This document shows, piece after piece, positions 1,571 through 24,338 of a stretch of DNA of 25,070 nucleotides. Every line of letters begins with the position of its first letter. Position 1 is the first letter of the stretch. The notes under the pieces are model-generated. The model worked only from the letters and a program-made list of their open reading frames with translations, searched no databases and was not told the DNA's origin. The DNA is taken from IMG/VR virus record IMGVR_UViG_3300018049_002861, positions 1 to 25,070 of that record; one strand, 5' to 3'. The DNA comes from a virus. A program made the translations under genes and the position numbers.

Positions 1571-1571
1571 T

Positions 1572-2195
1572 ATGAAAAAAGTATTTGACTACTGGATGCC
1601 CGATACTGATGACCACTTTGAGAGATTAATTGCAAAGCGTGTTAAAAACGGCGGACCTGCTGAATATCAAGATGATGTAAGAGATGCTGCGTATAAGCAT
1701 GTAACTGATTTTGACGTTGTAGTAGATGCAGGCGCTAACGTAGGTTTATGGGCTAAGCCACTTGCTGAAAAGTTTAAAAAAGTAATTGCTTACGAACCAT
1801 TAGAACAAGTGTATTCCTGCTTAGAAAAAAATGTAACTGGGCTGCCCGTTGAAATTTACAGACATGCAGTTGGTAACGAAAATACTGTTGTTGAAATGAT
1901 ATACGATAGTGAAAATACAGGCGGAAGTTTTATAACCACCGTTGGATCCGGCAGTATTGAAATAAAACGTATAGATGATTTAAATTTGCCTAAGTTTGGA
2001 TTATTCAAAATAGATTGCGAGCGTCATGAACTTGAAGTTCTTAAAGGTGCAACAGAAACTATTTTAAAGTATAAACCTATTATTGTATGCGAACAGCAGG
2101 CTGATACTAACTTTTGTGCCGGTGAGTATTTGAGATCACTCGGAGCAATAGAAATTACAAATGTACGAAAAGATTATATTTTTGGATGGGAATAA
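1572..2195 (+). CDS. FkbM-family methyltransferase
   Basis: A 207-residue SAM-dependent methyltransferase. Motif I is VVDAGANVGLW (about residues 50-60), followed by AYEPLEQVY (73-81) where the acidic residue binds the SAM ribose. The later IKRIDDLNLPKFGLFKIDCE and LEVLKGATE segments are the hallmark of FkbM methyltransferases, which often O-methylate sugars or polyketides. The gene starts one base after the preceding stop and is followed directly by a glycosyltransferase (TAA then ATG), so it is almost certainly co-transcribed with both. I infer sugar O-methylation in the same glycan pathway. Confidence 0.88.
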   Translation: MKKVFDYWMPDTDDHFERLIAKRVKNGGPAEYQDDVRDAAYKHVTDFDVVVDAGANVGLWAKPLAEKFKKVIAYEPLEQVYSCLEKNVTGLPVEIYRHAVGNENTVVEMIYDSENTGGSFITTVGSGSIEIKRIDDLNLPKFGLFKIDCERHELEVLKGATETILKYKPIIVCEQQADTNFCAGEYLRSLGAIEITNVRKDYIFGWE

Positions 2196-3905: not shown

Positions 3906-3909
3906 TGCA

Positions 3910-4833: not shown

Positions 4834-5681
4834 CTATTCCAATATCTTTCTTTTCTGTTTACCATTAAATCTTTAGCTAAACTTTTACCTGTATTTTTCC
4901 TATCACCTTTCATGTGATCAATCCAAGTACCTAGCACTGTGTTAATTAGTGGGTGTCCTCCGCCCCCTGTTTTAGCTTCTTTTAAGTACATATCAGCACT
5001 GTAATCTAGCACATTAGGGTCACGTTCTTTTATTTTGTTTAATAAATCGCCAAACACAAAACTGTCGTGCCATTCTTCTAATTTAAAGATACCATTCTCG
5101 GCATCTTCATATACACGTTCAAATTCTTTCAAAAACTTTTGACATGTTTTATCATTTAGATTCATACCATAAAATCCACACTCAGGCCATGTTTGTGAAC
5201 CTTTGCCTCTGCCTACATATGTAATCCATTTTTCGTCGGGTAATAGATTTTTAAATTGATCGTATGACCATTTAGAATGAACAACAGTATCTGCGTCCAT
5301 CCACACACACCAGTCATATGATTTTTCACATGCATCAAACACTGCGTAGACTTTATTTGCAAAACGTACAGCATCCCATTTAAATGCTTTATGATAATCT
5401 CTAGGTCTTTTAGCTTTTATATCTTCAGGAGGTATGCCGTTTGCTTTAGGTACATTGCCCCATTTTTCTTTGAACGCATTTAGTTTAGGTAGTGCTTCTT
5501 TTGCATTAAATACTAATACCTGTGTTGGATCTTTTACAACTGGAGAGCAGTCTTCTGCATATACATAAAGTTGTATACGTTTGTCGACATTCTCTTCAAA
5601 ACTGGTGATAAACTTTTGCCCGTACAAATCTAAGCCAGGCTTGTGAAAAGTGGTAACTACTTTTATATCTTTAAATTGCAT
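4830..5681 (-). CDS. GT-A type glycosyltransferase on the opposite strand
   Basis: A 283-residue protein (start ATG 5681; a longer frame from 5813 would run into the divergent gene and adds residues without recognisable features). It opens with KVVTTFHKPGLDLYGQKFI, has a WCVWMDADTVVHSKW segment with a DADT metal-binding DxD-type motif at 129-132, and a WHDSFVFGDLL segment near the C-terminus that resembles acceptor-side parts of such enzymes. It transfers a sugar from a nucleotide donor; donor and acceptor are unknown. It is the only minus-strand gene in the glycan island. Its start lies 13 bases from the divergent start at 5695 and its stop overlaps the plus-strand stop at 4833 by 4 bases (TTAG), like a cassette inserted backward between two paralogues. 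Confidence 0.78.
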   Translation of the reverse strand: MQFKDIKVVTTFHKPGLDLYGQKFITSFEENVDKRIQLYVYAEDCSPVVKDPTQVLVFNAKEALPKLNAFKEKWGNVPKANGIPPEDIKAKRPRDYHKAFKWDAVRFANKVYAVFDACEKSYDWCVWMDADTVVHSKWSYDQFKNLLPDEKWITYVGRGKGSQTWPECGFYGMNLNDKTCQKFLKEFERVYEDAENGIFKLEEWHDSFVFGDLLNKIKERDPNVLDYSADMYLKEAKTGGGGHPLINTVLGTWIDHMKGDRKNTGKSLAKDLMVNRKERYWNS

Positions 5682-5694
5682 AAGGTATTTAACT

Positions 5695-6540
5695 ATGAAA
5701 TTCAATCTATGGACAAATAATGGAGCAATGAATAGTAGTCCTGTGTTCAAAGCTTTTGAAATCGGAGCTAAGTCTCTAGGACACGAAGTTGTACACAACA
5801 GTACTGACGGCATAGACGTGATATGGAGTGTGCTGTGGCACGGACGTATGGCACCAAATGAAAAGATTTGGCATAGAGCTAGGCAACAAAATAAACCTGT
5901 AATTGTATTAGAAGTTGGTGTTTTGAATAGAGGTACATATTGGAAAGTCGGCCTAAATGGTATAAACCGCGATGCTTATTTTGCTCCTACTGGTTTTGAC
6001 GGCGCAAGAAAATATATACTAAACTTACAAACAAAGCCGTGGCGAGATAATCGAGACGGAGATATTCTACTTGTTACTCAACATGATAAAAGTCAACAAT
6101 GGAAAAACATGCCTTCTATGTCCACGTGGGTTTACGAAACAATAGAAGAAATTAGAGGATATACTGATAGACAAATCACAGTACGATCACATCCTCGTTG
6201 CAGACTTTCAGGCCTGCAATTTGAGTTTAAAAATGTCAGAGTGCAAGAGCCAAAAAAGTTAGACGGAACTTATGATGATTTTGATTTTAATTGCAGGAAG
6301 TCATGGGCAGTAGTAAATTGGTCAAGCAATCCTGCGATAGAAGCTGCTATTCAAGGTATACCTGTGTTTATAGGTCCTAGTAGTTTAGCATACGAAGTAG
6401 GTAATCATAGCTACAGTACAATAGAAAATCCGTTAACACCTGACAGGACACAATGGTTAAATGATTATGCTCACAAAGAATATTCTGTTCCGGAAATACA
6501 AGCAGGCATACCTATAATATACTTGACAGAACGTCTTTAA
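5695..6540 (+). CDS. GT-B-like glycosyltransferase, tandem paralogue
   Basis: A 281-residue protein starting at ATG 5695; a longer frame from 5650 would overlap the divergent minus-strand gene. Its segments are NNGAMNSSPVFKAFEIGAKS, then IDVIWSVLWHGRM, ILLVTQHDKS, TDRQITVRSHPRCR (the R-x-H-P motif), WAVVNWSSNPAIEAAIQGIP, and IENPLTPDRTQWLNDYA near the end. The order matches the protein at 3910-4833, and the N-terminal halves share an [LF]NG element (KVGLNG here, RYSFNG there). It probably transfers a sugar or sugar acid to a surface glycan; the WSSNPA segment looks like a nucleotide-binding loop. No signal peptide or membrane segment is visible, so it should act in the cytoplasm. The specific donor is unknown. 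Confidence 0.7.
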   Translation: MKFNLWTNNGAMNSSPVFKAFEIGAKSLGHEVVHNSTDGIDVIWSVLWHGRMAPNEKIWHRARQQNKPVIVLEVGVLNRGTYWKVGLNGINRDAYFAPTGFDGARKYILNLQTKPWRDNRDGDILLVTQHDKSQQWKNMPSMSTWVYETIEEIRGYTDRQITVRSHPRCRLSGLQFEFKNVRVQEPKKLDGTYDDFDFNCRKSWAVVNWSSNPAIEAAIQGIPVFIGPSSLAYEVGNHSYSTIENPLTPDRTQWLNDYAHKEYSVPEIQAGIPIIYLTERL

Positions 6541-7558: not shown

Positions 7559-9022
7559 ATGCCAACATGTAAACTTATAATTCAGGATGAAGTAAACATC
7601 AAGCTCGAAGGTCTTGAGGTAGATATACGACGTAAACTAGCTAATGCTTTAAAGTTTGAAGTACCGTATGCTAGATATATGCCGCAATACAAATTAGGAA
7701 GATGGGATGGTAAGGTGGCATTCTTTGGCATCGGCGGTACTGGATATGTAAATCATCTTGATACAATCACAAAAGTACTTGCTGATAATAAAGTTACAAT
7801 TACAGAAATTGATGATCAACGTCATTCTATACAACTTGACTTTGCACAAGTTACAGATCGCTATTGGGCCGATAAAGGTATTGTATGGCCAAAAGGACAT
7901 CCTGCAGAAGGCGAAGAAGTTATTCTACGTGACTATCAGGTAGAAGCAATTAACAACTTTGCAAACAATCCACAGAGCTTGCAACAGATTGCAACTGGTG
8001 CAGGTAAAACCATTACAACTGCTACACTATCACACATGAGTGAAAAGTATGGACGCAGTTTGGTAATTGTTCCAAATAAATCACTCGTTACGCAAACAGA
8101 AGAAGATTACATTAATTGTGGACTAGATGTTGGCGTTTATTTTGGAGACCGAAAAGAGTTAGGTAAGACCCACACTATTTGTACCTGGCAAAGTTTAAAT
8201 ATATTAGACAAAAAACATAAAGACGGAAAAGCCGTGCTATCGCTAGCTGAATTTTTGGATGGTGTTAGCACTGTAATTGTAGACGAAGTGCATCAAGCAA
8301 AAGCAGAAGTTTTAAAAAACTTATTGACTCGTAATTTAAAAAATGCACCAATACGTTGGGGACTTACTGGTACTGTGCCTAAAGAACCTTTTGAATTTGA
8401 AAGTATACACGCAAGCTTAGGTCCTGTAGTTGGACAAATTACTGCTAAGGAGTTACAAGACAAAGGCGTATTATCTAATTGTCATGTAAATGTAGTGCAG
8501 TTAAAAGACCCAGTAGCTTATAATGATTATCAAACTGAATTAAAATACTTGACAACAAATGAAAAACGTATACAATATATAGCAAGTATACTTAACAGTG
8601 TGAAAGAGTCAGGCAACACACTAATACTAGTAGACAGAATTTCAGCAGGAAAAATGTTGCAAGACCTCATCCCAGGCAGTGTATTTGTTAAGGGGGATGT
8701 AAAATTAAAAGATCGAAAGGAAGCTTACGATGAAATCAATGAAGGAACTAATCACGTTGTTATTGCAACTTACGGGGTTGCGGCTGTGGGAATTAACATA
8801 CCTCGTATTTTTAATCTTGTGCTCATTGAGCCTGGCAAGAGTTTTGTTAGGGTAATTCAGAGTATAGGACGTGGTGTACGTAAAGCAAAAGATAAAGACT
8901 TTGTACAGATTTGGGATATAACTAGTACTTGCAAGTTTGCAAAAAGACACTTAACACAACGTAAGAAATTTTATAAAGAAGCAGAATATCCCTATAGTAT
9001 AGAAAAACAAGACTGGACTTAA
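7559..9022 (+). CDS. uvsW: UvsW superfamily 2 helicase
   Basis: UvsW (487 residues; 503 in T4) unwinds RNA-DNA hybrids, D-loops and branched DNA, drives fork regression, and helps switch replication from origin-dependent to recombination-dependent mode. The N-terminal domain contains YMPQYKLGRWDGKVAFFG, as in UvsW. Motor motifs are all present: Walker A ATGAGKT (145-151), motif II DEVH (242-245), motif III-like GLTGT, and motif VI QSIGRGVRKA (434-443) with both arginines. Full-length and intact. It follows its upstream neighbour by 3 bases and is followed after one base by a GTG-started gene, so they are co-transcribed. Confidence 0.93.
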   Translation: MPTCKLIIQDEVNIKLEGLEVDIRRKLANALKFEVPYARYMPQYKLGRWDGKVAFFGIGGTGYVNHLDTITKVLADNKVTITEIDDQRHSIQLDFAQVTDRYWADKGIVWPKGHPAEGEEVILRDYQVEAINNFANNPQSLQQIATGAGKTITTATLSHMSEKYGRSLVIVPNKSLVTQTEEDYINCGLDVGVYFGDRKELGKTHTICTWQSLNILDKKHKDGKAVLSLAEFLDGVSTVIVDEVHQAKAEVLKNLLTRNLKNAPIRWGLTGTVPKEPFEFESIHASLGPVVGQITAKELQDKGVLSNCHVNVVQLKDPVAYNDYQTELKYLTTNEKRIQYIASILNSVKESGNTLILVDRISAGKMLQDLIPGSVFVKGDVKLKDRKEAYDEINEGTNHVVIATYGVAAVGINIPRIFNLVLIEPGKSFVRVIQSIGRGVRKAKDKDFVQIWDITSTCKFAKRHLTQRKKFYKEAEYPYSIEKQDWT

Positions 9023-10252: not shown

Positions 10253-10508
10253 CTACATTACCGGACAAGCTTTAATTTATGAGCGAGTTGACGGTGTAGT
10301 ATATGCACGATATCGAGATCCCCCTTATAATCATCAACCTCGTTGGATTATAGGTGGGGATGCCGATGCTGTTGCTAAAGCAAAAGGATCGTTTTTGTCT
10401 TGGAATGATTTTGAAACTATGAATAAGTTAGCAAAAGAACATCCAGCACTTAAAAAACAAATGTCTAAACTTTTAGATTTATATTTCCTTTTAAAGGATA
10501 ATCAATGA
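10245..10508 (+). CDS. Small conserved protein of unknown function
   Basis: An 87-residue protein starting at an ATG that overlaps the previous gene by 8 bases and ending in an ATGA overlap with kdsA, so translation is coupled on both sides. It has GQALIYERVDGVVYARYRDP, then a Pro/His/Trp-rich stretch PPYNHQPRWIIGG, and a helical C-terminus. The first half looks like a small beta unit and the rest like one or two helices. No function recognised. Position between the repeat protein and kdsA is the only clue; it may belong to the KDO block. Confidence 0.7.
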   Translation: MVDYITGQALIYERVDGVVYARYRDPPYNHQPRWIIGGDADAVAKAKGSFLSWNDFETMNKLAKEHPALKKQMSKLLDLYFLLKDNQ

Positions 10509-11281
10509 AAATTATAGCAGGACCGTGTCAACACGAAAGCCTTGAACATAGCACAATGATTGCCAAACACTGTAAGTCAGTGTGCGACGATCTAGGCATT
10601 GACTATTATTTCAAAGCTAGCTTTGATAAAGCAAACAGGACAAGTGCTAACGGTAAGCGTGGTCGTGGCATGCAACGCACTATGGACGACTTTGTACAAA
10701 TAAAAGAAAATCTTGATGTTAAGATTCTTACTGACTTTCATAGTGTGTTTGAAATTCATGCATGGCGAGGTGTCGACGAATGGTATAATGCTATAGATGT
10801 AATTCAAATTCCTGCGTTTTTATGTAGGCAAACAGACTTAATTACAACCGCTTGTAATTCAGGAAAAATTGTTAACATTAAAAAAGGACAATTCTTAGCA
10901 CCATGGGATGTTGAAGGTATATTATCAAAAACCAAAAGTGCTAACGAAGTATGGATAACTGAAAGAGGAACAAGTTTTGGATATAACACTTTGGTGGTTG
11001 ATTTCACTGGTATACTTTACATGCTTGAGCACTACAACAATCCTATTGTATTTGATGTTACCCACTCAGTACAGAAACCAGGTGGTAAAGGCTCAAGCTC
11101 GGGTGGTAACAGGAATTTTGTTGCTCCACTTTCCCGCGGCGCTGCTGCTATGGGCGTGGACAACTTTTTCCTAGAAGTCCATGATGACCCTGATAATGCA
11201 CCTAGTGATGGTCCTAATATGATACGTCTTGATAACTTTGAAACAGTTATTAAGGACATTAAGGATAGCTATCGTGAATAA
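10505..11281 (+). CDS. kdsA: 3-deoxy-D-manno-octulosonate 8-phosphate synthase (KDO-8-P synthase), metal type
   Basis: This enzyme condenses phosphoenolpyruvate and D-arabinose 5-phosphate to KDO 8-phosphate, the first committed step to KDO. The sequence (258 residues) has IAGPCQHES at the start, YFKASFDKANRTS (about 35-47), WITERGTSFGY, FDVTHSVQ, FLEVHDDP and APSDGPNM. Cys8, His187, Glu224 and Asp235 correspond to the four metal ligands of the metal-dependent class (Aquifex Cys11, His185, Glu222, Asp233); in the metal-free E. coli enzyme the Cys is Asn. It is full-length and appears intact. A Shine-Dalgarno AAGGAT lies 6 bases upstream. kdsB follows with an 8-base overlap. KdsC and KdsD are not in the window and would have to come from the host. 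Confidence 0.92.
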   Translation: MKIIAGPCQHESLEHSTMIAKHCKSVCDDLGIDYYFKASFDKANRTSANGKRGRGMQRTMDDFVQIKENLDVKILTDFHSVFEIHAWRGVDEWYNAIDVIQIPAFLCRQTDLITTACNSGKIVNIKKGQFLAPWDVEGILSKTKSANEVWITERGTSFGYNTLVVDFTGILYMLEHYNNPIVFDVTHSVQKPGGKGSSSGGNRNFVAPLSRGAAAMGVDNFFLEVHDDPDNAPSDGPNMIRLDNFETVIKDIKDSYRE

Positions 11282-11990
11282 CACTGCTATTTTTATACCA
11301 GCTAGATTAGCAAGCACTAGATTTCCAAAAAAGATGCTTGCTGACCTCAACGGCAAAAGTCTTATTCGTACAGTGTACGACAAATGCGTAGCTACTGGAT
11401 TAGATACCTATGTGTTAACCGACAGTGCCCAAATAAAAGAAGAAATACCAGCTGAGCATGTATTCATTACACCTTACGCTGATAACGGCACTGAACGTTG
11501 CGCACACGGCGTTGAAGCAGTATCGGGCAAAGGCTTTTTTAGACGAGCTTCGGGAATATATAAAAGTTATATTAATGTTCAAGGCGACATGCCTGACATT
11601 ACTGAAGATATAATCCTTGCTATTAAGCAAGGGTTAGACGAAGGGCATAAGGTAGTAACAGCATACACTGATATGGCTCCTGAGCTGCGCACAGATCCTA
11701 ACTCAGTTAAGATGATTCACAACGGCACACATGCGCACTGGTTTTGTAGAGCAAGTTTAGAGTACGGTGATCATCATCTCGGTGTATATGGTTACAATTG
11801 GCGCACACTGGTTAGCTATAAGTCTATGCCCCAGTCTGAAGAAGAAAAAATAGAGAAATTAGAACAGTTGCGTTTTCTTCAAAACGGTGTTAATATTAAT
11901 ATACAGAAGGTAGACTTCAATGGTATGGAAATAAATACACCAACAGATTTAGAGGAATGGCGCAAGCATAATGCCAAATGTAGAAATTAG
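11274..11990 (+). CDS. kdsB: CMP-KDO synthetase (3-deoxy-manno-octulosonate cytidylyltransferase)
   Basis: KdsB couples CTP and KDO to CMP-KDO, the activated donor. I chose GTG 11274 (238 residues) since the protein then begins NNTAIFIPARLASTRFP, the usual KdsB start with the nucleotide-binding Arg-rich loop, with AAGGA 8 bases upstream; an upstream ATG at 11229 would overlap kdsA by 53 bases. NVQGDMP (101-107) corresponds to the usual NVQGDEP, with Glu replaced by Met. Near the C-terminus, EINTPTDLEEW corresponds to the usual VDTPEDLE, so the first Asp (a proposed second metal ligand) appears as Asn. The protein is full-length, but these two changes make activity uncertain. It overlaps the PEP carboxykinase gene by 20 bases. 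Confidence 0.85.
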   Translation: MNNTAIFIPARLASTRFPKKMLADLNGKSLIRTVYDKCVATGLDTYVLTDSAQIKEEIPAEHVFITPYADNGTERCAHGVEAVSGKGFFRRASGIYKSYINVQGDMPDITEDIILAIKQGLDEGHKVVTAYTDMAPELRTDPNSVKMIHNGTHAHWFCRASLEYGDHHLGVYGYNWRTLVSYKSMPQSEEEKIEKLEQLRFLQNGVNINIQKVDFNGMEINTPTDLEEWRKHNAKCRN

Positions 11991-13170
11991 TACAGTACCT
12001 ACTGGAAGAAGTCCCGATAACAAATACTATTTCGGCGAACTTACAAGCGAGCTAGATTTAACTCGTCCTAAATATAATAAAATCGGTAAAGATGAAGACT
12101 TTGAAAAGTTCTTTGATCAAATTACAAGTTGCGAAGATTTAGATCATATTATCTATTTTACTACTTGCGGAATACGTTTTAGATTTATAACTAACGATTA
12201 TCGGCATGCCCAGTTTGTAAGAAATATGTTCACCGACGAAGATTGGGCAGACGAAGAGTCTTGGGATTGGACTATTTGTCATAGCACTTCGTTAAATATT
12301 GAAGAACCAAAGATCTATATTAACTTAGATAGTTGTGATATTTTAATTGCTGGCACAACATTTATGGGTGAAATTAAAAAGTCTGTATTTGGAGTTGTAA
12401 GTTTCTTACTACCAAAAAAGAATATTTTACCTATGCATTGTAGTGCATTTACATTTGCTGGCACTACAAATCTTATGTTTGGATTATCTGGTACAGGAAA
12501 AACTACGTTAAGTAGTGACCCTGATTTCATGCTCATAGGTGATGATGAGATTGCATGGCATAACAAGGGCATTGAAATGATCGAAACTGGTTGCTATGCA
12601 AAAAGCGAGGGGCTTACACCTGATACACACGAAACTATATTCAATGCAGTTGAAAAGGCAAAAGATCATAATACACTTGTGATCGAAAATCCCGGAGTGC
12701 CGAATGCTAGATTAAGCTATCCGTTGCATTGTGTTGAAAATGCATATCATCAAGATCGCGAATTTAATCACCCTAAAAACATCTTTTTCTTAACAATGGA
12801 TGCAAAAGGTGTATTTCCCTCAATAAGCAAAATTACCGGAAACACAGTAAAGCGTTTCTTTGAAACAGGGTACACTAGTCAAATGCCAGGCACCGAAGCA
12901 GGCACTGACGAGATTAAGCCTTTATTTTCGCCTTGCTATGGCTCGCCATTTATGCCAAGAGCAGTAAGTGAATATAGTGATTTACTAATGAAAAAGATAG
13001 ACGAACACAAATGCAATGTGTATTTGGTAAACACTGGTATGGACAAAAAAGGTGTTCGCTTTCCGCTTGACTTTACTAGACGATGTGTTAAAATAGCTAT
13101 TACTGAGGGAGCAGCAAACCAATCTACTGCTTGTTTAGCGATACTAGAAGAATTAATTAATGCCAAATAA
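11971..13170 (+). CDS. pckA: PEP carboxykinase (ATP), shortened form
   Basis: PckA converts oxaloacetate and ATP to phosphoenolpyruvate. Seen in order: TGRSPDNKYYF (Arg13 = E. coli Arg65), GTTFMGEIKK (Lys137 = Lys213), MHCSA (His156 = His232), the P-loop GLSGTGKTTLSSD (171-183), IGDDEIAW (Asp191/192), NARLSYP (Arg247 = Arg333), FLTMDAKGVFP, and YLVNTGMDKKGVRF. The spacing between Lys137 and His156 matches E. coli. The protein is 399 residues against about 540, lacking most of the usual region before Arg65 and being shorter in the middle and at the C-terminus. One position differs: E. coli Tyr207 is Phe131 here. Directly downstream of kdsA/kdsB, it could supply PEP to KdsA; this is inference. 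Confidence 0.88.
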   Translation: MPNVEISTVPTGRSPDNKYYFGELTSELDLTRPKYNKIGKDEDFEKFFDQITSCEDLDHIIYFTTCGIRFRFITNDYRHAQFVRNMFTDEDWADEESWDWTICHSTSLNIEEPKIYINLDSCDILIAGTTFMGEIKKSVFGVVSFLLPKKNILPMHCSAFTFAGTTNLMFGLSGTGKTTLSSDPDFMLIGDDEIAWHNKGIEMIETGCYAKSEGLTPDTHETIFNAVEKAKDHNTLVIENPGVPNARLSYPLHCVENAYHQDREFNHPKNIFFLTMDAKGVFPSISKITGNTVKRFFETGYTSQMPGTEAGTDEIKPLFSPCYGSPFMPRAVSEYSDLLMKKIDEHKCNVYLVNTGMDKKGVRFPLDFTRRCVKIAITEGAANQSTACLAILEELINAK

Positions 13171-13627: not shown

Positions 13628-14306
13628 AAAGTCATATACTTGTGAATACTGCAAAAAAAGTTATGCTAGAGAAAAAACACTAGCAGCTCATATGTGTGAG
13701 CCAAAAAGGCGTTGGTTACAAAAAGACACAAAGCCTGCATTGTTAGGTTTATGGGCGTTTAACAGATTTTATAAGCTAAGTGCAGGAAGTAAAAAAGAAA
13801 AGACATACGACGACTTTTGCAAGTCACCATACTATAATGCTTTTGTAAAATTTGGAAGTTATTTAAATAATGTACAACCTTTATACACAGAAAGATATAT
13901 CGATCACGTTGTAACAAGTGGCATTAAACTAGATCATTGGTGTAAAGATGATTTATATGAAGCTTATGTGCTAGATCTAATTTTAAAAGAAGATGTACAA
14001 ACTGCATTAGAAAGATCGATTAATACAATGATAGAATGGAGTAAAGATAACTCACCATCGCCTTGGAATCATTACTTTAAATATGTTAATCCTAACAGAG
14101 CAGTATGGCATCTAAAAGACGGAAAAATTTCTCCATGGTTAGTGCTTAACTGCACTACAGGAAAAAATATGCTAGGTAAATTTTCAGATGAACAATTGAA
14201 TATGCTTGTAAATGTTATTGATCCAAAACACTGGAGTAGGAAATTTAAAAGTAAGCCTGCAGATGTTGAGCTAGTAAAACAAGTTGTTAAAGAAAGTAAA
14301 TTATGA
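13602..14306 (+). CDS. Conserved phage protein with N-terminal zinc finger
   Basis: A 234-residue protein. I chose ATG 13602 over the frame start at 13554 because the finger then lies near the N-terminus as in related phage proteins, and GAAGA precedes it. Residues 14-32 read C-x2-C-x12-H-x-C (Cys14, Cys17, His30, Cys32), a C2HC variant of a classical finger, within YTCEYCKKSYAREKTLAAHM. The rest has DDFCKSPYYNAFVKFGSYLN, DHWCKDDLYEAYVLDL and DPKHWSRKFKSKPADVELVK. I recognise it as a conserved unknown of T4-like marine phages. A DNA- or RNA-binding role is inferred from the finger. It overlaps the deformylase gene by the four bases ATGA. Confidence 0.72.
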   Translation: MASTLKDSEKSYTCEYCKKSYAREKTLAAHMCEPKRRWLQKDTKPALLGLWAFNRFYKLSAGSKKEKTYDDFCKSPYYNAFVKFGSYLNNVQPLYTERYIDHVVTSGIKLDHWCKDDLYEAYVLDLILKEDVQTALERSINTMIEWSKDNSPSPWNHYFKYVNPNRAVWHLKDGKISPWLVLNCTTGKNMLGKFSDEQLNMLVNVIDPKHWSRKFKSKPADVELVKQVVKESKL

Positions 14307-14794
14307 ATTTATTGTATTATCCTAACGAATTTTTATCTAAAACTTTAGACGAAGTTGATATAGAAAATATAACTTTTGACACTAAAGATATTAAAGAACA
14401 AATGTTAGACATAATGTTATCTAATATAGGCATTGGTTTAAGCGCAAATCAAGTAGGGCTAGATTACAGACTTTTTGTTATGGGAAATACTAGAGAAGAT
14501 GCAGTTATGTGCATTAATCCTAAAGTGTTACAATATACAGAAACAAAAAGTCTTGATGTCGAAGGTTGTTTAAGCTTTCCTGGTATAAACATTCAAGTAC
14601 AGCGCCCAAGAGATATTCTTGTTGAATACTATGACGAAAATCTAGAGTTGAATCGAACAGTAACTTCTGATTACAGTGCAAGATTATTTTTACATGAACT
14701 TGATCATTTAAACGGCATAACATTTAAAGATAGAGTATCTAAATTAAAATGGAACTTAGCTGAAAAGAAAGCAAAGAAAAATGCCCGACGTTGA
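14303..14794 (+). CDS. def: Peptide deformylase
   Basis: Peptide deformylase removes the formyl group from nascent bacterial proteins at the ribosome. All three catalytic motifs are present in 163 residues: GIGLSANQ (43-50, motif G-x-G-L-x-A-x-Q), EGCLS (87-91; Cys89 binds the metal) and HELDH (131-135; His131 and His135 bind the metal, Glu132 is the base). The protein lacks the long C-terminal extension of many bacterial enzymes, as seen in short phage versions. It ends in a Lys/Arg-rich helix (KWNLAEKKAKKNARR). Phage deformylases are known in marine phages; they may speed processing of viral or photosystem proteins. It overlaps the upstream gene by 4 bases and the downstream polymerase-like gene by 14. 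Confidence 0.93.
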   Translation: MNLLYYPNEFLSKTLDEVDIENITFDTKDIKEQMLDIMLSNIGIGLSANQVGLDYRLFVMGNTREDAVMCINPKVLQYTETKSLDVEGCLSFPGINIQVQRPRDILVEYYDENLELNRTVTSDYSARLFLHELDHLNGITFKDRVSKLKWNLAEKKAKKNARR

Positions 14795-15350
14795 CATTGA
14801 CTTTGCTGACAGATCTATTATACTAGAAAAACTACAGCACAGAGTTGCAATGCTTTCTAACGGAAAAAAGCATAACACTGGAATATATCCGACAGAAATT
14901 CCGCACAATCCTATAGACAACTGCTCTACACTAAACTACAAAGACGCAGATGATCGAGGATATTTTAAATTAGATTTTCTTAACGTAAGCATATACAAAG
15001 ATATTCAAAGCGAAGATCAATTAGATTATCTAGTTAGCAAAGAACCGTTATGGGATCTGTTGTGGCAAAAAGACTTTAGTGATTTAGTGTTTCATCTTAA
15101 CGGACATAGTGAAATTTTACAAAAATTGAAACCACGTAACGTAGAGCAACTAGCAGCTACACTTGCAATCATACGACCTGCTAAACGGTATCTTTTAAAT
15201 TCTGATTGGGATACAATTTTACGTGAAGTTTGGGTACAACCAGACGGTGATGAATATTTCTTTAAAAAGAGTCATTCTTTTTCGTATGCATTTGCTGTGA
15301 TTGTACATATGAATTTAATTTGTGAAAAAATTTCTTACGGATATACTTAG
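14781..15350 (+). CDS. Short C-family (DNA polymerase III alpha-like) core fragment protein
   Basis: A 189-residue protein that begins directly at the Pol III alpha catalytic motif MPDVDIDF (residues 1-8, the PDxDxD aspartates). Further matches to DnaE are FKLDFLNVSIYKDI (Asp65, corresponding to the third catalytic Asp in KFDFLGL), FHLNGHSEILQKLKP (like FQxES..M..L...P), VEQLAATLAIIRPAK (like the DL.A..AL.RPGP segment), and KKSHSFSYA (like NKSHSAAYA). It lacks the GSGAGS glycine loop, the PHP domain, the long fingers insertion and the OB fold, so on its own it is unlikely to be a full polymerase. It is a second copy of the family in this window, along with 19363-20997. Its role is unknown; similar short proteins occur in marine phages. 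Confidence 0.75.
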   Translation: MPDVDIDFADRSIILEKLQHRVAMLSNGKKHNTGIYPTEIPHNPIDNCSTLNYKDADDRGYFKLDFLNVSIYKDIQSEDQLDYLVSKEPLWDLLWQKDFSDLVFHLNGHSEILQKLKPRNVEQLAATLAIIRPAKRYLLNSDWDTILREVWVQPDGDEYFFKKSHSFSYAFAVIVHMNLICEKISYGYT

Positions 15351-16563: not shown

Positions 16564-17547
16564 ATGAATATAGTTCAAGATGTGATTACATTACATTTGC
16601 CGTCGCAGCAGAAAGTTACACCATCAGGATGGACATCTTTCAATGCACCTTGTTGTCATCACAACGGAACTTCTGCTGACACAAGACAGCGTGGCGGCAT
16701 CATTAAAGGGTCCGACGGAGAAGTGTCATACCATTGTTTTAATTGCGGATTTAAAACAGGATGGCAGCCTGGTCGCAACATATCTTATAAATTAAGACAA
16801 TTACTTCAATGGCTAAATGTACCTGACGATACAATTAATAAGCTTGCATTAGAAGTAATGCGTTCTAACGAAGGTATTCAAGTAAAAGAGTTTACATATG
16901 ATCTTCCCGAGTTTACTAGTGTACAATTACCACCAAATGCTGAAAAAATTATAGACATTGCTGAACCACCTAAGCATCTAGCAAGTATTTTTGAATATAT
17001 GCACAGTCGTCAACTAAACACTGATGATTATACTTTTTATTGGTCAGCAGATTTAGCTTTTAGAGATAGATTAATTATTCCATTTTACTACAAAGGTAAT
17101 ATTGTAGGTTGGACAGGAAGAACTATACAAGCTGATAAAAAGCCGAAGTATCTATCAGAGCAACAGCCTGGCTATTGTTTTAACTTAGACAATCAAACTG
17201 ATAATAAAGTATTTGCAATTGTTTGCGAAGGTGTTGTTGATGCTATACACGTTGACGGAATCGGTTTACTTGGATCGGAAATAAGTGAGCAGCAAGCACT
17301 ATTAATCAATCAATTAAACAAACAAGTTATAGTTGTACCCGATAGAGATAAAGCAGGCAAGAAGCTTGTATCGGCTGCAATAGAGCAAGGGTGGAGCGTT
17401 AGTATGCCTGACTGGGACGACGATATTAGCGACATTGCAGATGCAGTTGAACGTTACGGAAAGATCTATACGTTATACAGTATTGCCACACAGGCAGAAT
17501 CATACGCTGTGAAAATAAAATTAAAGGAAAAGAAATGGTTTGGATAA
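16564..17547 (+). CDS. 61: DNA primase (gp61-like)
   Basis: The primase makes RNA primers for lagging-strand synthesis and works with the gp41 helicase encoded three genes downstream. The 327-residue protein has an N-terminal zinc-binding module (Cys30/Cys31 and His33, then Cys58 and Cys61 in YHCFNCGF), and a Toprim domain with the acidic motif CEGVVDAIH (Glu222) and the metal-binding PDRDKAG (259-265, Asp260 and Asp262). The length is close to that of T4 gp61 (342). No Shine-Dalgarno precedes the ATG, and a consensus promoter ends seven bases upstream, so the transcript is likely leaderless. The last 13 bases overlap a short gene. Confidence 0.9.
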   Translation: MNIVQDVITLHLPSQQKVTPSGWTSFNAPCCHHNGTSADTRQRGGIIKGSDGEVSYHCFNCGFKTGWQPGRNISYKLRQLLQWLNVPDDTINKLALEVMRSNEGIQVKEFTYDLPEFTSVQLPPNAEKIIDIAEPPKHLASIFEYMHSRQLNTDDYTFYWSADLAFRDRLIIPFYYKGNIVGWTGRTIQADKKPKYLSEQQPGYCFNLDNQTDNKVFAIVCEGVVDAIHVDGIGLLGSEISEQQALLINQLNKQVIVVPDRDKAGKKLVSAAIEQGWSVSMPDWDDDISDIADAVERYGKIYTLYSIATQAESYAVKIKLKEKKWFG

Positions 17548-17655: not shown

Positions 17656-17904
17656 ATGTTTAATGAATTTACAAACGGAATATTTAAAGTACTCAAAAAA
17701 CTTAGTGTAGGCAATAGTGTTATACTTGCTATTATTTACACGCTTGGTCATTTTGTAATTGCAATTAGTACAGTTAGATTAATTACTGGAGCTAATTGGT
17801 TTGATGCAGGATTAACTGCGCTTATTGAACCAATATTAAATGGCTTTTGGTTTTACATCTTACATAAGTACCTAGCTAAACGTATTGCAAAGAGATTTAA
17901 ATGA
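17656..17904 (+). CDS. DUF2061-like small membrane protein
   Basis: An 82-residue protein starting at ATG 17656 with GAGG upstream; a TTG seven codons earlier is an alternative. Two probable membrane helices are visible, about residues 20-40 (NSVILAIIYTLGHFVIAIST) and 52-72 (AGLTALIEPILNGFWFYILH), with a basic C-terminus KYLAKRIAKRFK. The sequence TLGHFVIAISTVRLITG with a later IEPILNGFWFYILHKYLAKR is like the DUF2061 family of membrane proteins, whose function is unknown. It overlaps the gp41 gene by the 4-base ATGA and so is translationally coupled to the helicase. Effects on the host membrane or replisome anchoring are possible but unproven. Confidence 0.65.
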   Translation: MFNEFTNGIFKVLKKLSVGNSVILAIIYTLGHFVIAISTVRLITGANWFDAGLTALIEPILNGFWFYILHKYLAKRIAKRFK

Positions 17905-19331
17905 CAACAACTCAAAACACTGATTACGGATACGATATACAAAAAGTTTATTTAGAAATGATGCTTACAGATGCTGAAACATTTGTAAGATGCCAAAGTG
18001 TATTTGATCCGTCAGCGTTTGATAGGAAACTACAGCCGGCAGCAGAATTTTTAAAAAATTATGTTGCTGATCATAATTCGTTGCCTACTTTTCAAATGGT
18101 CAATGCTTCGTGTCAAACTGCACTTCAAGATCCCGGTGCATTAAGAGAAGAACACTATGATTGGCTATTAAAAGAATTTGAAGTGTTTAGTAGACACAAA
18201 GCACTAGAGTCTGCTATCTTAAAAAGCGCCGACTTACTAGAAAAAGGCGAATACGGACCTGTTGAAGATCTAGTTAAGAAGGCCGTGCAGATTGGTTTAC
18301 AAAAAGATTTAGGAACAGACTACTTTGCAGATCCACGAGCTAGACTTGAAGCAATTAAAGATAAAAATGGGCAAGTTAGTACTGGTTGGGATAGTTTAGA
18401 TAAGAAATTATTCGGCGGTTTTAACAGAGGCGAACTTAATATATTTGCAGGCGGCTCTGGCTCTGGTAAAAGTTTGTTCATGGCAAACTTGGGTGTTAAC
18501 TGGTGTTTGACAGGCCTTAATGTATTGTATCTTACATTTGAGCTTTCCGAAAACTTAGTGAGTATGCGAATAGATTCGATGACTACAGACATTCCTACAA
18601 AAGATGTTTTCAAGTCAATAGAAGATGTTGAAATGAAAGTAAAAATGATAGGAAAGAAAGCAGGTGCAATGCAGGTTAAGTACATGCCGAGTGGCTGCAC
18701 AGCAAATGATCTTCGAAGTTATATTAAAGAGTATGAAATTAAAACTGATAGAAAAGTTGATGTAGTACTAGTAGATTATCTCGATCTTATGATGCCAATG
18801 GGTGTTAAAGTATCACCTAGTGACATGTTTGTAAAAGACAAATATGTATCTGAAGAACTGCGTAACCTAGCAATGGAACTTAATACTGTATTTGTAACTG
18901 CCTCGCAGTTAAACAGAGGAGCAGTTGAAGAAGTAGAGTTTGATCATTCACATATTTCCGGCGGCCTTAGCAAGATCAATACAGCCGATAATGTGTTTGG
19001 TATCTTTACTAGTAGAGCTATGCGTGAACGTGGACGCTATCAAATACAACTTATGAAAACACGTTCGTCTAGCGGCGTGGGCTCTAAAGTTGATCTTGAA
19101 TTCGACGTTGATAGCTTGCGTATTAGAGATCTTGCAGATGATAGTGATTATCAAGAATTTTCAAAACGTAAATCTACAGTATTTGATCAAATTAAACGAG
19201 GTAACTCAACTGCACCCGTTGAAGAAGAAAAGAAAAATCCAGCCGAAGGCGATACTGTAGGTAAAATCAAAGCAGAAACAGATAGTACTATGTTACGCTC
19301 TTTCTTGAACAACTTGTCAACTGAGGAATAG
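17901..19331 (+). CDS. 41: Replicative DNA helicase (gp41-like, DnaB family)
   Basis: The 5'-to-3' hexameric helicase of the T4-type replisome unwinds the fork and binds the primase. The 476-residue protein has an N-terminal helical domain with DAETFVRCQSVFDPSAFDRK, then the RecA-like domain with Walker A GGSGSGKS (184-191), a conserved FELSENLVSMR stretch, Walker B VVLVDYLDLMM (Asp292) and an AMELNTVFVTASQLNRGA segment, followed by a charged C-terminal tail. Length and motif order match gp41 (475 in T4). It is complete. It overlaps the previous gene by ATGA and is followed by a short gap before the C-family polymerase gene. Confidence 0.93.
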   Translation: MTTTQNTDYGYDIQKVYLEMMLTDAETFVRCQSVFDPSAFDRKLQPAAEFLKNYVADHNSLPTFQMVNASCQTALQDPGALREEHYDWLLKEFEVFSRHKALESAILKSADLLEKGEYGPVEDLVKKAVQIGLQKDLGTDYFADPRARLEAIKDKNGQVSTGWDSLDKKLFGGFNRGELNIFAGGSGSGKSLFMANLGVNWCLTGLNVLYLTFELSENLVSMRIDSMTTDIPTKDVFKSIEDVEMKVKMIGKKAGAMQVKYMPSGCTANDLRSYIKEYEIKTDRKVDVVLVDYLDLMMPMGVKVSPSDMFVKDKYVSEELRNLAMELNTVFVTASQLNRGAVEEVEFDHSHISGGLSKINTADNVFGIFTSRAMRERGRYQIQLMKTRSSSGVGSKVDLEFDVDSLRIRDLADDSDYQEFSKRKSTVFDQIKRGNSTAPVEEEKKNPAEGDTVGKIKAETDSTMLRSFLNNLSTEE

Positions 19332-19362: not shown

Positions 19363-20997
19363 ATGGCAGACAACGATTTAGAAAACATAGAAAAACTATT
19401 ACAAAGATTTAAAAGACCAATACCGCAAACAGAAGAATACACACTTAGGCTAGTTGAAGAATTTGAACTAATATTAAATCAGAGATTCACAGATTATTTT
19501 TTACAAATTTGTGACATTATAGATCTTACTCAAGACTTAACACACATGACTAGAGGATCTGCAGGAAGTAGCTTAGTTTGCTACTTGTTAGGCATTACTG
19601 ACGTAGATCCAATTAAATGGCGTATACCCGTAGCACGATTTATGAATCCAATGCGTGACGATTTACCAGATGTTGATATCGACTTCGAACATCATCGTCA
19701 GCTAGAAGTAATGGATCGCATATTTAAAAAATGGCCTGGTAAGACTGCTCGCCTAAGCAATTATGTAATGTACAGGCAAAAAAGTGCACGTAAAGAAGCA
19801 GCTAAACGCTTAGGAGTTAAAGGGAATCTACCCCGTAACTTTAAGTATGAAGATTACGACATTGATCCAAAGGAAGCAAAGCGTATCGAGAATAGACTTA
19901 TTGGTAAGAAGCGAGCAATATCAAAACATTGCGGCGGCATTGTAATGTTTACACGACAATTACCTAAAAGTTTAATTTCTCAAGATAATCAAATACTGTT
20001 AGACAAATATGAAGTAGAGGATTTAGAACACCTTAAAGTTGACATACTTGCAAACAGAGGTTTGTCGCAACTACTCGAAATTGATCCTGATACTGCTTTA
20101 GCAGATTACCCTGAAGAAGATCAAAAGACAAGTGAGTTGTTATGTCGCGGCGACATACTAGGTGTTACCCAGGGTGAGTCACCGGCTATGCGAAGATTGT
20201 TTAGAGCAATACAGCCAACTTCAGTTCACGATTGTGTGTTTGCTACAGCTATGGTTAGGCCAGTTGCTATGAGCGGCAGACAAAAAGCAGCAATGTTTCA
20301 AGACTGGAGTCAAGAAGCTATACAGGATAGTATAGTGTTTGAAGACGACGCAATATCAATTATATCAGATATAATAGGTGTTGATATGTATGAAGCAGAT
20401 ATGTATCGACGTGCATTTGCAAAAAAGAATGATGAAAAGATTTTAGAATTTGTAGAACGCATGGGAGTACACCCCCGAAAGCAAGAGGCCATGGCTGCCT
20501 TACAAAGTTTATCAGGATTTGGCTTATGTCGTGCACACGCAGTTAACTTAGGTCGTCTTATATGGGCCCTAGCTTACCAAAAAGCGCATAACCCTAAAGA
20601 ATTTTGGCGTGCAAATATAAAACATTGCCAAGGGTCATACAGACCCTGGGTATATCAAGTAGAGGCCCACCGTCAGGGTATACCCACATATTCAGGATGG
20701 TGGCATAGGGGGTTCCCTAATAATGTAGGGGTTCGACAACTATGGCTCGATAGGGTCGAGTTTGCAGGTGTTATTGCTAATGGGCGTTGTTATAGGGGCA
20801 AAGGCAACCGTTGGGTAACCTTTCTTACCCTTGGCATAGGCTACGGAGAATACATCGACATTGTAGTTAAACGTGCAGTATCTTATCGAGACGGTGACAT
20901 AGTTCAAGGTCAAGGTCGTATACAGCATAGTAATAATAGCGACTTTATTGATACTAGCATGGTCGACGTGTATTCGTTTACAGACTGGAACAGATAA
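19363..20997 (+). CDS. Compact C-family DNA polymerase-like protein (Pol III alpha core, no PHP)
   Basis: A 544-residue protein with the Pol III alpha (DnaE) core motifs in order: TRGSAGSSLVCYLLGITDVDP (63-83; glycine-rich palm loop), ARFMNPMRDDLPDVDIDF (91-108; catalytic PDxDxD at 102-107), LEHLKVDILANRGLSQ (221-236; third catalytic Asp227), GVTQGESPAMRRLFRAIQP (267-285; FQxES-like), VHDCVFATAMVRP (288-300), GFGLCRAHAVNLGRLIWALAYQKAHNPKEF (385-414; FNKSHAAAYA-like), and an OB-fold at about 465-523 (VEFAGVIANGRCYRG). There is no PHP/proofreading domain and no N-terminal part before the glycine loop, and no beta-clamp or tau-binding C-terminus. Full DnaE is about 1160. This is probably a phage polymerase or a polymerase-derived accessory; activity is unproven. 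Confidence 0.8.
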   Translation: MADNDLENIEKLLQRFKRPIPQTEEYTLRLVEEFELILNQRFTDYFLQICDIIDLTQDLTHMTRGSAGSSLVCYLLGITDVDPIKWRIPVARFMNPMRDDLPDVDIDFEHHRQLEVMDRIFKKWPGKTARLSNYVMYRQKSARKEAAKRLGVKGNLPRNFKYEDYDIDPKEAKRIENRLIGKKRAISKHCGGIVMFTRQLPKSLISQDNQILLDKYEVEDLEHLKVDILANRGLSQLLEIDPDTALADYPEEDQKTSELLCRGDILGVTQGESPAMRRLFRAIQPTSVHDCVFATAMVRPVAMSGRQKAAMFQDWSQEAIQDSIVFEDDAISIISDIIGVDMYEADMYRRAFAKKNDEKILEFVERMGVHPRKQEAMAALQSLSGFGLCRAHAVNLGRLIWALAYQKAHNPKEFWRANIKHCQGSYRPWVYQVEAHRQGIPTYSGWWHRGFPNNVGVRQLWLDRVEFAGVIANGRCYRGKGNRWVTFLTLGIGYGEYIDIVVKRAVSYRDGDIVQGQGRIQHSNNSDFIDTSMVDVYSFTDWNR

Positions 20998-21023: not shown

Positions 21024-24000
21024 ATGTTTTTACGAGAATTATTAGTTGAAGATAGAGTAAAAGATTTTGATAAAGTACTAAAGCCTTATCTAAAAAATAA
21101 TCATACTAGCCGTGATTGGGCTGCAATTATATTATTAACAGGTAGTCCTAACTTGTTTCAACTTAAACATTTATTTGATGGATATTCTAGTGCTTTAAAA
21201 GATTTATCTTCTGATGAAATTTATAAAATAATAGATCATTACATTGATACTTACCCACAAGCACGTTCTGCAATAACAAAAGGCAAATTTAAAGCAAGTA
21301 ATTTTCCTTATAAAGAAAGAACAATAAATTCATTATTCCAATCAGGATTTCCAACTGCTACAGAATTAAAAAGAGAACACCAATTTAATAAAGAAAACGA
21401 TTTATGGGATCCTGTAAAATTAAGAGACACTTCGTCCCGTAGAGGTTCATTAGGCAAACCTAACACTCAAACTACACCTACATCTAATGAACCAACAGAT
21501 GCAGAACCATTTGGTGGTACATACAAACCAACAACACCAACACCAACATATGGAACTTCAGAAGCGTCGTTACTAAAGGATTTATATAATCATGCTCAAA
21601 GAGCTGACGGTTGGGAAATGTCTTTTATTCGTAGAACAGAAGATTCAGTTGTGCAGTTAATAAGCTTAATTATTGCAGCCTCGTCTCAAGATGGACTTGC
21701 TGCAATGCAACAAATGCGCCAACATTACTGGCAAGTTGTAGATAAAAATTATGGTAAGAAAAAAATAAATTATCCTGCAATTCTTGAAATTTTAAAGAGA
21801 TACAGAAATGTAGAAAAAACCAATCCTGTGCTCAAAGCGTGGGAAGATTTACCTAACGATGTAAAAAACACAGCATGGCAAAAATATAAAATACATTTAA
21901 AATACGGTTTTGATCTAGAAGACACCGGAGCTCATCCGGGCTTAGGACGCAGTCGCGAAAGATACGTGGTTGATCCTGATACTCTTCCTAAACTGCCTAG
22001 ACCCGGTGCGCCAAGAGATGTAGCAGAAAAGTCGTTAGAGCAGCAAATGCTAAAATATGATACCGAGGATTATGTCGATGACATTGAAGAAATATTAGGC
22101 GAAAGAGTAAAAGGTTATTGGAAAAAATTGAGTCCAGAAAAAATATCTGCCTATTTGGCTAATGTTAGCGTAGTTGCTGTAGACTATGACGTATTCGATT
22201 GGAACATGCGACTGTTAGCAAAAAATAAATTTGTAGATCCAATTAATAATTTAGATGACCCTATTTTGCAACTAGGTATAATGGGCGATCCTAGAAATAT
22301 AGAAAGCACGTTAAAAGCGTCTCCAGGGTTGCCAGAAAAGTATCCCGAAAGAAAAGTTATAGCACGATGGCCTGGCATGGGAATATGGGGCGCAGCATAC
22401 GGCGGCCCATATGGCGAAGATACTCTCCTATCTGGAGAAGATCAACTTATGGCATATCATCCTTCAAGAGCTGCAAGAACTGATGCTCATGAAATTAGAC
22501 ACAGAGCATTTAATATTATAAGTTTGCTACCAGCTTTGAGAAACAAACTACCTGCAGATCTAAAACCAGGAGGTAAATGGTGGGGAAGCTATGGCGATGA
22601 AAAGTACACGGATTGGGACAAAATAGAGATTGCAACTGGTGCTTGGGCAGAGCATGCATTGATTTATGCAGTTGATTATGCTGCCGGTACTACTCCAGAA
22701 AGACGTATGAAATTTTTTGATAACGGGATATTCAACACTAAAGATTACCCCATAAGTTATTGGAAAAAACTCTATTACGATACAAGTAAAGTAGTGGGCG
22801 ACTTCTTAAAAGAAATAGGTGCAGACAAAAGATTCATTAAGCCAAAGCCATTAAACTATTACAATCGTCCGCCGCTTCCGGGCGACAATATAGAAATATC
22901 AAATAGTATGGCACCGTACATTAAAACCAATCCAGGCTGGACTGAAATGTATCGACACATTTTATTAAATGACGATCTTGATCAACTTCAAAAAATTGAA
23001 GCGGCATTAGACGGCGACATGTTTATGGGCGGCTGGAACCTGAGACGGGCTGTTGATAAAAATCTTTTAGACAGATTCGATGTTATATACGAAGAAGCTC
23101 TGCGGGCAATGTATAATGCACATTTTAGTAGAGCATACAAATTTGCTTTACCTATAGCTATTAAGAAAAGTGAAACTTTGCTTGCAAACTGGAAGAAGAG
23201 AAACAATAAAACTGTAGAGCCAGAATATATAAGAACTAGAATTAATGAACTTAAAAATACTGTCGAAGAACTAGGAAAACTAAAAGATATAGAAATATTA
23301 TTGCCAGGCTATTTTGCAAAAAAAGTAAAGGCAGGAGAAATAGAACCAGCAACAAATGCTGAATTAAGAAGATTATTACCATACTCTATTGGAGATTACA
23401 GAGATCACAAAGCTCAAATCGAACTAGGAGCAATTCCTTTACCGGGCGTTGAGCCAAAAAGCAAAGATTCTATAAGCAGTAGTGATTGGGCAACTGACTA
23501 TCTTAGACCAGATCCAAACATTGAAAAGGAATTAAAAATACCTAACCATGTCTACGGTAACACAGTTGGTGACAGCGATCTTGTACAATATGCAGCAACT
23601 AGCGATGTAATTGCTTATTTGCTAGGTTACATTAAAAGAATACATGAGAATATACCTTGGCCTGCTAATTATGATATGGATGCTACTATACAGTATTATA
23701 ACGACGGCGGCGAAAAAAGAAGATATACTAGAAAGCCAGGTGTGCCTTATCCGATTACAGGACAAATTGCAACTCAACTTAAAGAAGCTTACGAAGCTGC
23801 ACAAAACGGTACAGAGCCTACTTACACAGGACCAAATACCAAAATTCCTACAAGCGAAGAACCTCCATTATCACCAGAGCCAGAGCCAGTCCAAGATCCT
23901 GATGTTGAGCCAACAAATGAACCAGACTATGACGATGAGTTTGATACGCCAATCGATGAACCTAATGAGCCAATCGATGAACCCGATGATGATGATGTCT

Positions 24001-24338
24001 CCTACAGTGCTGATGAATTAGAACCTATTCCTTATTATATCGCTCCTGGTATACAAATAGATAGATTAGATAGTCCGTTAGTCTTTAAGACTACTGATGC
24101 ATTTTTATCTAGATTGTCTTCAGGCGCACCTAGTCCTATTTACGATTTGTATAGCGATTCGATTCAATGGCCAGGCGATTATGATATAGACAAAGCTATT
24201 AATTTTTACAATCACTATATTTCTAAAAATCCAGGTGATTATCGTAGCCGAGACTTACCAAAGCGTATTAATGATGAACTGAGACAAGAATTACGTCAAA
24301 AGTATGCTAAGTTAAAAAGAAAAGGAACAGGAACTTAA
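21024..24338 (+). CDS. Large putative virion/capsid-packaged protein with HEXXH motif
   Basis: A 1104-residue protein. The start MFLRELLVEDRV resembles the capsid-targeting peptide of T4 internal proteins, with LVE fitting the gp21 protease site (L/I-x-E). A Pro/Thr-rich linker follows (about 145-180). The middle has TDAHEIRHRAFNI, an HEXXH zinc-metallopeptidase motif (His489, Glu490, His493), with a possible third ligand Glu543 in TGAWAEHALIYAVD. The C-terminal region has two related segments, IPWPANYDMDATIQYYN (873-889) and IQWPGDYDIDKAINFYN (1047-1063), separated by a Pro/Glu/Asp-rich linker (about 939-994). I infer a protein packaged in the head or tail and possibly delivered to the host; the peptidase function is a hypothesis. 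A late-type promoter box precedes it. Confidence 0.7.
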   Translation: MFLRELLVEDRVKDFDKVLKPYLKNNHTSRDWAAIILLTGSPNLFQLKHLFDGYSSALKDLSSDEIYKIIDHYIDTYPQARSAITKGKFKASNFPYKERTINSLFQSGFPTATELKREHQFNKENDLWDPVKLRDTSSRRGSLGKPNTQTTPTSNEPTDAEPFGGTYKPTTPTPTYGTSEASLLKDLYNHAQRADGWEMSFIRRTEDSVVQLISLIIAASSQDGLAAMQQMRQHYWQVVDKNYGKKKINYPAILEILKRYRNVEKTNPVLKAWEDLPNDVKNTAWQKYKIHLKYGFDLEDTGAHPGLGRSRERYVVDPDTLPKLPRPGAPRDVAEKSLEQQMLKYDTEDYVDDIEEILGERVKGYWKKLSPEKISAYLANVSVVAVDYDVFDWNMRLLAKNKFVDPINNLDDPILQLGIMGDPRNIESTLKASPGLPEKYPERKVIARWPGMGIWGAAYGGPYGEDTLLSGEDQLMAYHPSRAARTDAHEIRHRAFNIISLLPALRNKLPADLKPGGKWWGSYGDEKYTDWDKIEIATGAWAEHALIYAVDYAAGTTPERRMKFFDNGIFNTKDYPISYWKKLYYDTSKVVGDFLKEIGADKRFIKPKPLNYYNRPPLPGDNIEISNSMAPYIKTNPGWTEMYRHILLNDDLDQLQKIEAALDGDMFMGGWNLRRAVDKNLLDRFDVIYEEALRAMYNAHFSRAYKFALPIAIKKSETLLANWKKRNNKTVEPEYIRTRINELKNTVEELGKLKDIEILLPGYFAKKVKAGEIEPATNAELRRLLPYSIGDYRDHKAQIELGAIPLPGVEPKSKDSISSSDWATDYLRPDPNIEKELKIPNHVYGNTVGDSDLVQYAATSDVIAYLLGYIKRIHENIPWPANYDMDATIQYYNDGGEKRRYTRKPGVPYPITGQIATQLKEAYEAAQNGTEPTYTGPNTKIPTSEEPPLSPEPEPVQDPDVEPTNEPDYDDEFDTPIDEPNEPIDEPDDDDVSYSADELEPIPYYIAPGIQIDRLDSPLVFKTTDAFLSRLSSGAPSPIYDLYSDSIQWPGDYDIDKAINFYNHYISKNPGDYRSRDLPKRINDELRQELRQKYAKLKRKGTGT
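23949..23983 (+). repeat. Short in-frame repeat in acidic linker
   Basis: The 14-base CCAATCGATGAACC occurs at 23949-23962 and 23970-23983, a 21-base (7-codon) period. It encodes the duplicated PIDEP elements of the Pro/Asp/Glu-rich linker between the two related C-terminal domains of the large protein. Slippage in a flexible linker is the likely origin. Confidence 0.7.

Follow-up and report, generated by a model that had tools for sequence, protein, structure and literature searches.

The closest described system to the locus reported here is that of the group 2.2 jumbo phages, whose B-family polymerase, PolB, is accompanied by a split minimal Pol III alpha (Iyer et al. 2021, PMC7824862). 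The C-family polymerases of bacteria are classified as DnaE1, DnaE2, DnaE3 and PolC, and bacteria with two-polymerase systems consisting of PolC and DnaE3 exist (PMC12926913). Phages with more than one replicative-type DNA polymerase are rare, having been reported for 8 genus-level groups versus 563 groups with one (PMC11348598), and the PF07733 domain is a cluster marker in marine jumbo phages, being present in 51.9% of PGC_A (PMC9123017). The protein described here, dnaE544, resembles the split minimal form in being phage-specific, in lacking the PHP and C-terminal domains and, very probably, in occurring beside PolB, but differs from it in consisting of one chain with a thumb, finger motifs equivalent to R709/R710 and an OB fold, and in belonging to a separate lineage. 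With bacterial DnaE1, DnaE2 and DnaE3 it shares palm, thumb, fingers, catalytic residues and OB fold, but neither the PHP domain nor the HhH/clamp-binding region or the C-terminal domain. Streptomyces phage TunaTartare and Cronobacter phage Ss1 also encode C-family polymerases; such full-length phage DnaE proteins measure 931-1137 aa, the two that were scanned contain PHP and HHH, and they cluster with bacterial DnaE, whereas dnaE544 does not. Finally, a 574-aa ORF of the uncultured phage LR756508 (484 kb) is compact like dnaE544, to which it is 39% identical over residues 8-531, and shares its genome with PolB, but has different neighbours and no split halves alongside.

The window, i.e. the whole stretch of DNA that was analysed, is an entire linear viral record of 25,070 bases and represents a fragment of a genome. 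It shows synteny with the jumbo phages Atu_ph07 (Agrobacterium), Phosso (Sinorhizobium) and PA5oct (Pseudomonas), comprising a UvsW-type helicase, a DnaG-type primase, a gp41-type helicase and a small Pol III alpha piece. Its source is a giant marine bacterial virus, a jumbo phage related to Atu_ph07, PA5oct and RaK2 rather than a generic T4-like phage, and by this synteny the window would come from a group 2.2 jumbo phage (PMC7824862). The original prediction had assumed a T4-like phage, where we find jumbo phages in which the combination of PolB with a split minimal Pol III alpha is already published (PMC7824862), and had overlooked the 189-aa Pol III alpha fragment inside the same window. 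The genes relevant to the following are:

7559 to 9022, plus strand: UvsW-type helicase, a conserved upstream neighbour (Pfam, PHROG, synteny)
14781 to 15350, plus strand: putative C-terminal half of a split minimal Pol III alpha, 189 aa, phrog_11778 (PHROG, fold match, invariant residues)
16564 to 17547, plus strand: DnaG-type primase, phrog_47, within the conserved block (PHROG match, synteny)
17901 to 19331, plus strand: gp41/DnaB-type replicative helicase, phrog_19 (PHROG match, synteny)
19363 to 20997, plus strand: dnaE544, predicted compact unsplit C-family DNA polymerase with palm, thumb, fingers and OB fold (Pfam/PHROG, structure, 104 distinct relatives, dN/dS)
21024 to 24338, plus strand: 1104-aa protein of a family that was not recognised, following dnaE544 (a relative lies directly 3' of the helicase in the related contig L106)

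Other parts of the window carry genes of different kinds. Three consecutive genes at 10505-13170 encode KdsA (3-deoxy-8-phosphooctulonate synthase, above the NCBIfam cut-off), a CMP-KDO synthetase of the KdsB type and a PEP carboxykinase (PEPCK) of the ATP type, short at 399 aa. The latter could supply the PEP used by KdsA, and a phage-borne PEPCK next to KDO genes looks unusual. A cluster of methyltransferase-like and glycosyltransferase-like genes at 1013-6540 is variable among relatives. The 1104-aa protein had no Pfam or PHROG match; it contains an HExxH-type stretch, DAHEIRHRAF, which reads AHEMRHRAF in L106, and is possibly a zinc metalloprotease.

The dnaE544 ORF starts with an ATG and encodes 544 aa in one chain. 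The start codon lies in the context AAAGAAAGGCAAGT-ATG, where AAAGAAAGGCAAGT is a plausible ribosome-binding sequence, and the gene is separated by 31 bases from the stop codon of the gp41-type helicase and by 26 bases from the next gene on the same strand. Pfam assigned PF07733 (Pol III alpha palm/NTPase, 8e-42) and PF17657 (finger domain, 1e-16), and PHROG assigned phrog_405 (DNA polymerase, 2e-68). In phmmer searches, the protein matched Pol III alpha chains of known structure at 4e-31. Its identity to bacterial DnaE amounted to 26-32% across the common core. An AlphaFold model built on an alignment of 21 sequences reached a mean pLDDT of 71.6, with stretches of low confidence in the finger region (residues 298-334, 352-357 and 378-388). 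This model matched Pol III alpha/PolC chains with Foldseek E values of 3e-17 to 9e-9, all else being far below, and gave VIA Z scores of ~21 to the Mtb and Taq alpha subunits and to PolC. The part of the model bearing on the C-terminus is:

20743 to 20994, plus strand: predicted C-terminal OB fold, model residues 461-544 (VIA Z ~9 to SSB/PriB OB folds)

Judged from sequence and predicted structure, dnaE544 is confirmed as a true Pol III alpha-type core comprising palm, thumb, fingers and OB fold. Thus, the compact, PHP-less Pol III alpha-like core adjoining gp41, as originally proposed from the DNA letters, was borne out by Pfam, PHROG, Foldseek and VIA, as was its OB fold by VIA, and the structure prediction that had been proposed as a check agreed with Pol III alpha and PolC.

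The catalytic aspartates of E. coli alpha are D401, D403 and D555. Residues of dnaE544 were numbered from an alignment to E. coli alpha (2hnh), which located the following elements:

19552 to 19560, plus strand: R64-G65-S66 in the loop TRGSAGSS, corresponding to GRGS of E. coli alpha (alignment to 2hnh; invariant in 104/104)
19669 to 19686, plus strand: catalytic strand D103-V-D105-I-D107-F108, corresponding to E. coli D401, D403 and D405 (alignment, conservation in 104 sequences)
20041 to 20043, plus strand: third catalytic aspartate D227, corresponding to E. coli D555, in K225-V-D227 (alignment, conservation in 104 sequences)

In addition, R92 corresponds to R390 of E. coli alpha, K225 to K553, R349/R350 to R709/R710 and H392 to H760, while the place of E. 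coli K758 is taken by an arginine, R390 of dnaE544. The protein thus contains the catalytic Asp triad and the PDxDxDF motif of the Pol-beta-like C-family palm, and each mapped active-site residue (R64-G65-S66, R92, D103/D105, K225/D227, R349/R350 and H392) is invariant among 104 distinct relatives. The three catalytic aspartates claimed in the original prediction (here D103, D105 and D227) are therefore indeed kept. The mutant pair suggested there, D105/D107, is off by one Asp, since the alignment puts E. coli D401/D403 at D103/D105, and D107 equals D405. The FNKSH-like segment proposed at the same time is recognisable by R390 and H392, the equivalents of K758 and H760, albeit loosely kept, as the degenerate motif reads FGLCRAH.

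Such conservation bears on whether the gene might be what is left of a bacterial or phage dnaE in decay. The absence of the big DnaE domains would agree with decay, but 265 positions are at least 99% invariant among 104 sequences, all 141 full-length relatives have the same compact architecture, and this architecture recurs in LR756508 at 39% identity. Moreover, dN/dS was ~0.03-0.11 in the few comparable pairs (dN 0.023 versus dS 0.88 in the closest informative pair), an estimate limited by the saturation of synonymous sites in most pairs. By these comparisons, dnaE544 is under purifying selection, and decay is contradicted by the data to a degree that leaves it hardly credible.

With regard to the parts that are missing, a Pfam scan detected neither PHP (PF02811) nor HHH_6 (HhH region) in dnaE544 or its relatives, while E. 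coli DnaE and two phage DnaE proteins used as controls gave both. The palm of dnaE544 starts near residue 20 and, as the longest open frame of the family among 153 relatives encodes only 605 aa, no relative has an attached PHP domain. A simple pattern for the bacterial beta-clamp-type motif, which would let an unrecognised clamp motif escape, had no match in 104 relatives, and the C-terminal (tau-binding) domain is lacking as well. The absence of PHP and of a clamp-binding tail, as first noted from the translation, thus held against positive controls and over all 104 sequences, respectively. The same data bear on the proposal that dnaE544 interferes with the host replisome, e.g. as a non-polymerising decoy against the host Pol III holoenzyme. 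Its homology to the core of the host replicase would agree with such a role, but the catalytic residues are invariant, the clamp-type motif, the PHP (epsilon-binding) domain and the tau-binding domain are absent, and the gene sits among the replication genes of the phage itself, in its own primase-helicase block. We therefore set host interference aside as very improbable.

The second C-family gene of the window codes for a protein of 189 aa that matched phrog_11778 at 1e-55. It starts with MPDVDIDF, i.e. with the PDxDxDF motif, and contains KLDFLNV and FFKKSH, which correspond to the KxD and FxKSH motifs of the split form. The family is conserved across 63 phage records, and D3, D5, D7, K63, D65 and H165 are invariant in 95-97 sequences. 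In phmmer searches against Pol III alpha the protein gave no match; its structural model had only Pol III alpha/PolC above background and covered E. coli alpha residues 400-784. In Atu_ph07, Phosso and PA5oct, the N-terminal half (PHROG 11127) is a separate protein of 170-190 aa with a GRGS loop, which ends with EFL plus one residue and stops where the MPDVDIDF of the C-terminal half begins. Sequence and model of the 189-aa ORF agree with the C-terminal unit of the split minimal enzyme (PMC7824862). A peptide deformylase gene at 14303-14794 (PF01327, 1e-38) overlaps the start of this ORF with its end by 14 bases. An origin of dnaE544 by fusion of the split halves was discarded, as dnaE544 is far closer to bacterial DnaE than the C-terminal half is; when the profile of the compact family was compared with that of each split half, the matches were weak.

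Neither a separate N-terminal half nor a gp43-type PolB was found within the 25-kb window, and none of the dnaE544-bearing contigs, all of which are at most 101 kb, carried either of them directly. Conversely, no unsplit relative was present on 26 contigs with an N-terminal half. For this reason, linkage was argued via contig ends. The marine contig G033 (165 kb) carries an N-terminal half and a full gp43-type PolB, and G007 (101 kb), from the same sample, carries a C-terminal half and a relative of dnaE544. Neighbouring contigs of a de Bruijn assembly share exact end overlaps. The ends of G033 and G007 share an exact and unique overlap of 77 bp, a 345-aa ORF reads across the junction, and the tetranucleotide correlation of 0.952 between the two is the top pairwise value in the set. 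The ordered parts of both map to complementary stretches of the 328-kb reference contig G020, one ending at ~207 kb and the other starting at ~211 kb, and conserved genes of G033 near this junction point are up to 73-82% identical to those of another dnaE544 contig, G005. A second same-sample pair (G057/G050) showed complementary synteny and no end overlap. On the basis of the overlap, the through-running ORF, the complementary synteny and the tetranucleotide correlation, PolB, the two halves of the split enzyme and dnaE544 very probably coexist in at least one phage of the lineage, which would hence have three polymerase gene sets. Of 44 dnaE544 loci extending at least 9.5 kb upstream, 40 contained the C-terminal half, and in three of the four others the gene that normally lies 3' of it sits at the edge of the locus. 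All four of the complete or large reference genomes that were checked contain PolB. The search for gp43 suggested in the original prediction is thus answered outside the 25-kb window, by the linked G033 and these four genomes, and we infer that the window's own genome also carries PolB and both split halves. The PolB of G033 ends with FNSLFDFGG, which we take to resemble the clamp-binding tail of RB69 gp43.

Relatives of dnaE544 are conserved in ~250 marine viral contigs. A first scan of viral contigs gave 190 stretches with relatives, the best 80 of which were kept, and a second scan, with a divergent member as query, gave 63 loci. The LR756508 protein as query retrieved nothing from the viral contigs, and a scan of genome_contigs gave one bacterial DnaE at 26% and no closer bacterial source. 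The gene is located downstream of the helicase in 135 loci. In L106, the C-terminal half and helicase of which are 76% and 82% identical to those of the window, dnaE544 is absent and the helicase is followed, after 27 bases (the empty site being 14585-14613, between helicase and next gene), by the relative of the 1104-aa gene. The comparison of L106 and the window is a clean single-gene presence/absence of dnaE544. Among 28 loci with a C-terminal half and at least 4 kb beyond the helicase, dnaE544 occupies this site in 3 and is absent from 25, which argues that it is dispensable in the wider group. Three configurations exist, given that LR756508 has the unsplit form and PolB without split halves, Atu_ph07, Phosso and PA5oct have PolB and split halves without a full-length relative of the unsplit form, and the linked G033/G007 have all of these.

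In a phylogenetic tree, the relatives from the window's lineage and the 574-aa protein of LR756508 formed one long-branch clade with a bipartition support of 100, albeit with few reference taxa. This compact clade lies outside the sampled DnaE1, DnaE2 and phage DnaE and does not group with the bacterial DnaE classes. Its position is relevant to a possible role as an error-prone lesion-bypass polymerase, functionally similar to DnaE2/ImuC. In favour of such a role, the top NCBIfam match of dnaE544 is the error-prone DnaE2 (PRK05672, 175 bits versus 163 bits for general Pol III alpha), the best bacterial tblastn matches are plasmid DnaE2 proteins at ~173 bits, and a proofreading domain is lacking. 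We nevertheless regard lesion bypass as unlikely, as the tree sets dnaE544 apart from DnaE2, DnaE2, DnaE1 and phage DnaE score almost alike, and no ImuA/ImuB was noticed within the 25-kb window.

The location of dnaE544, packed close behind primase and gp41-type helicase, would also agree with a primer-extension polymerase similar to DnaE3 of B. subtilis. Such an enzyme would extend the RNA primers of the phage primase over a short distance before PolB takes over, so that the two would share the work on the lagging strand. The missing proofreading and clamp parts would suit this task as well. On the other hand, many close relatives have the same primase-helicase block without dnaE544 at the site, and in T4-type replisomes PolB alone extends RNA primers directly; primer extension as the dedicated function is thus possible, yet doubtful. 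Taken together, dnaE544 is probably a minimal active accessory C-family polymerase for short-patch synthesis alongside the PolB replicase, serving gap-filling/repair or primer extension. That it is catalytically active is strongly suggested by the invariance of every mapped active-site residue, while low processivity and synthesis over short stretches are suggested, more weakly, by the lack of proofreading and clamp parts. In the mechanism we propose, a gp43-type PolB with its own proofreading domain would be the main replicase of the lineage, and dnaE544 would be made together with the primase-helicase block, fill gaps during repair or extend primers, and then hand over to PolB. An endonuclease III gene separates dnaE544 from the helicase in 46 of 135 loci (HhH-GPD, 7e-18; e.g. 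at 14493-15179 of L180), with the cysteine spacing of a 4Fe-4S cluster visible in its sequence. This adjacency, which concerns one subclade only and not the window, where the gene is absent, may hint at gap-filling in base-excision repair.

The split form is already published, and the compact single-chain form is a variant of the minimal C-family polymerases of phages. In the literature, most subscription journals of which were not covered, we found no description of the compact single-chain form or of its co-occurrence with the split form. It is conceivable, although we put this forward as a tentative idea, that the compact proteins represent a further main branch of the C-family with the smallest complete single chain known, in a mixed replisome of PolB and split and unsplit C-family polymerases. 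If so, the three polymerases would divide the work, e.g. into leading strand, lagging strand/primer extension and gap repair; different jobs are suggested by the fact that the lineage seems to have retained three gene sets, with catalytic residues conserved in each of the two that are C-family. In any case, dnaE544 indicates how much of Pol III alpha may be omitted with strong selection still acting on the active site, and offers a small target for testing the need for PHP and clamp-binding parts and the mixing of B- and C-family polymerases in one replisome.
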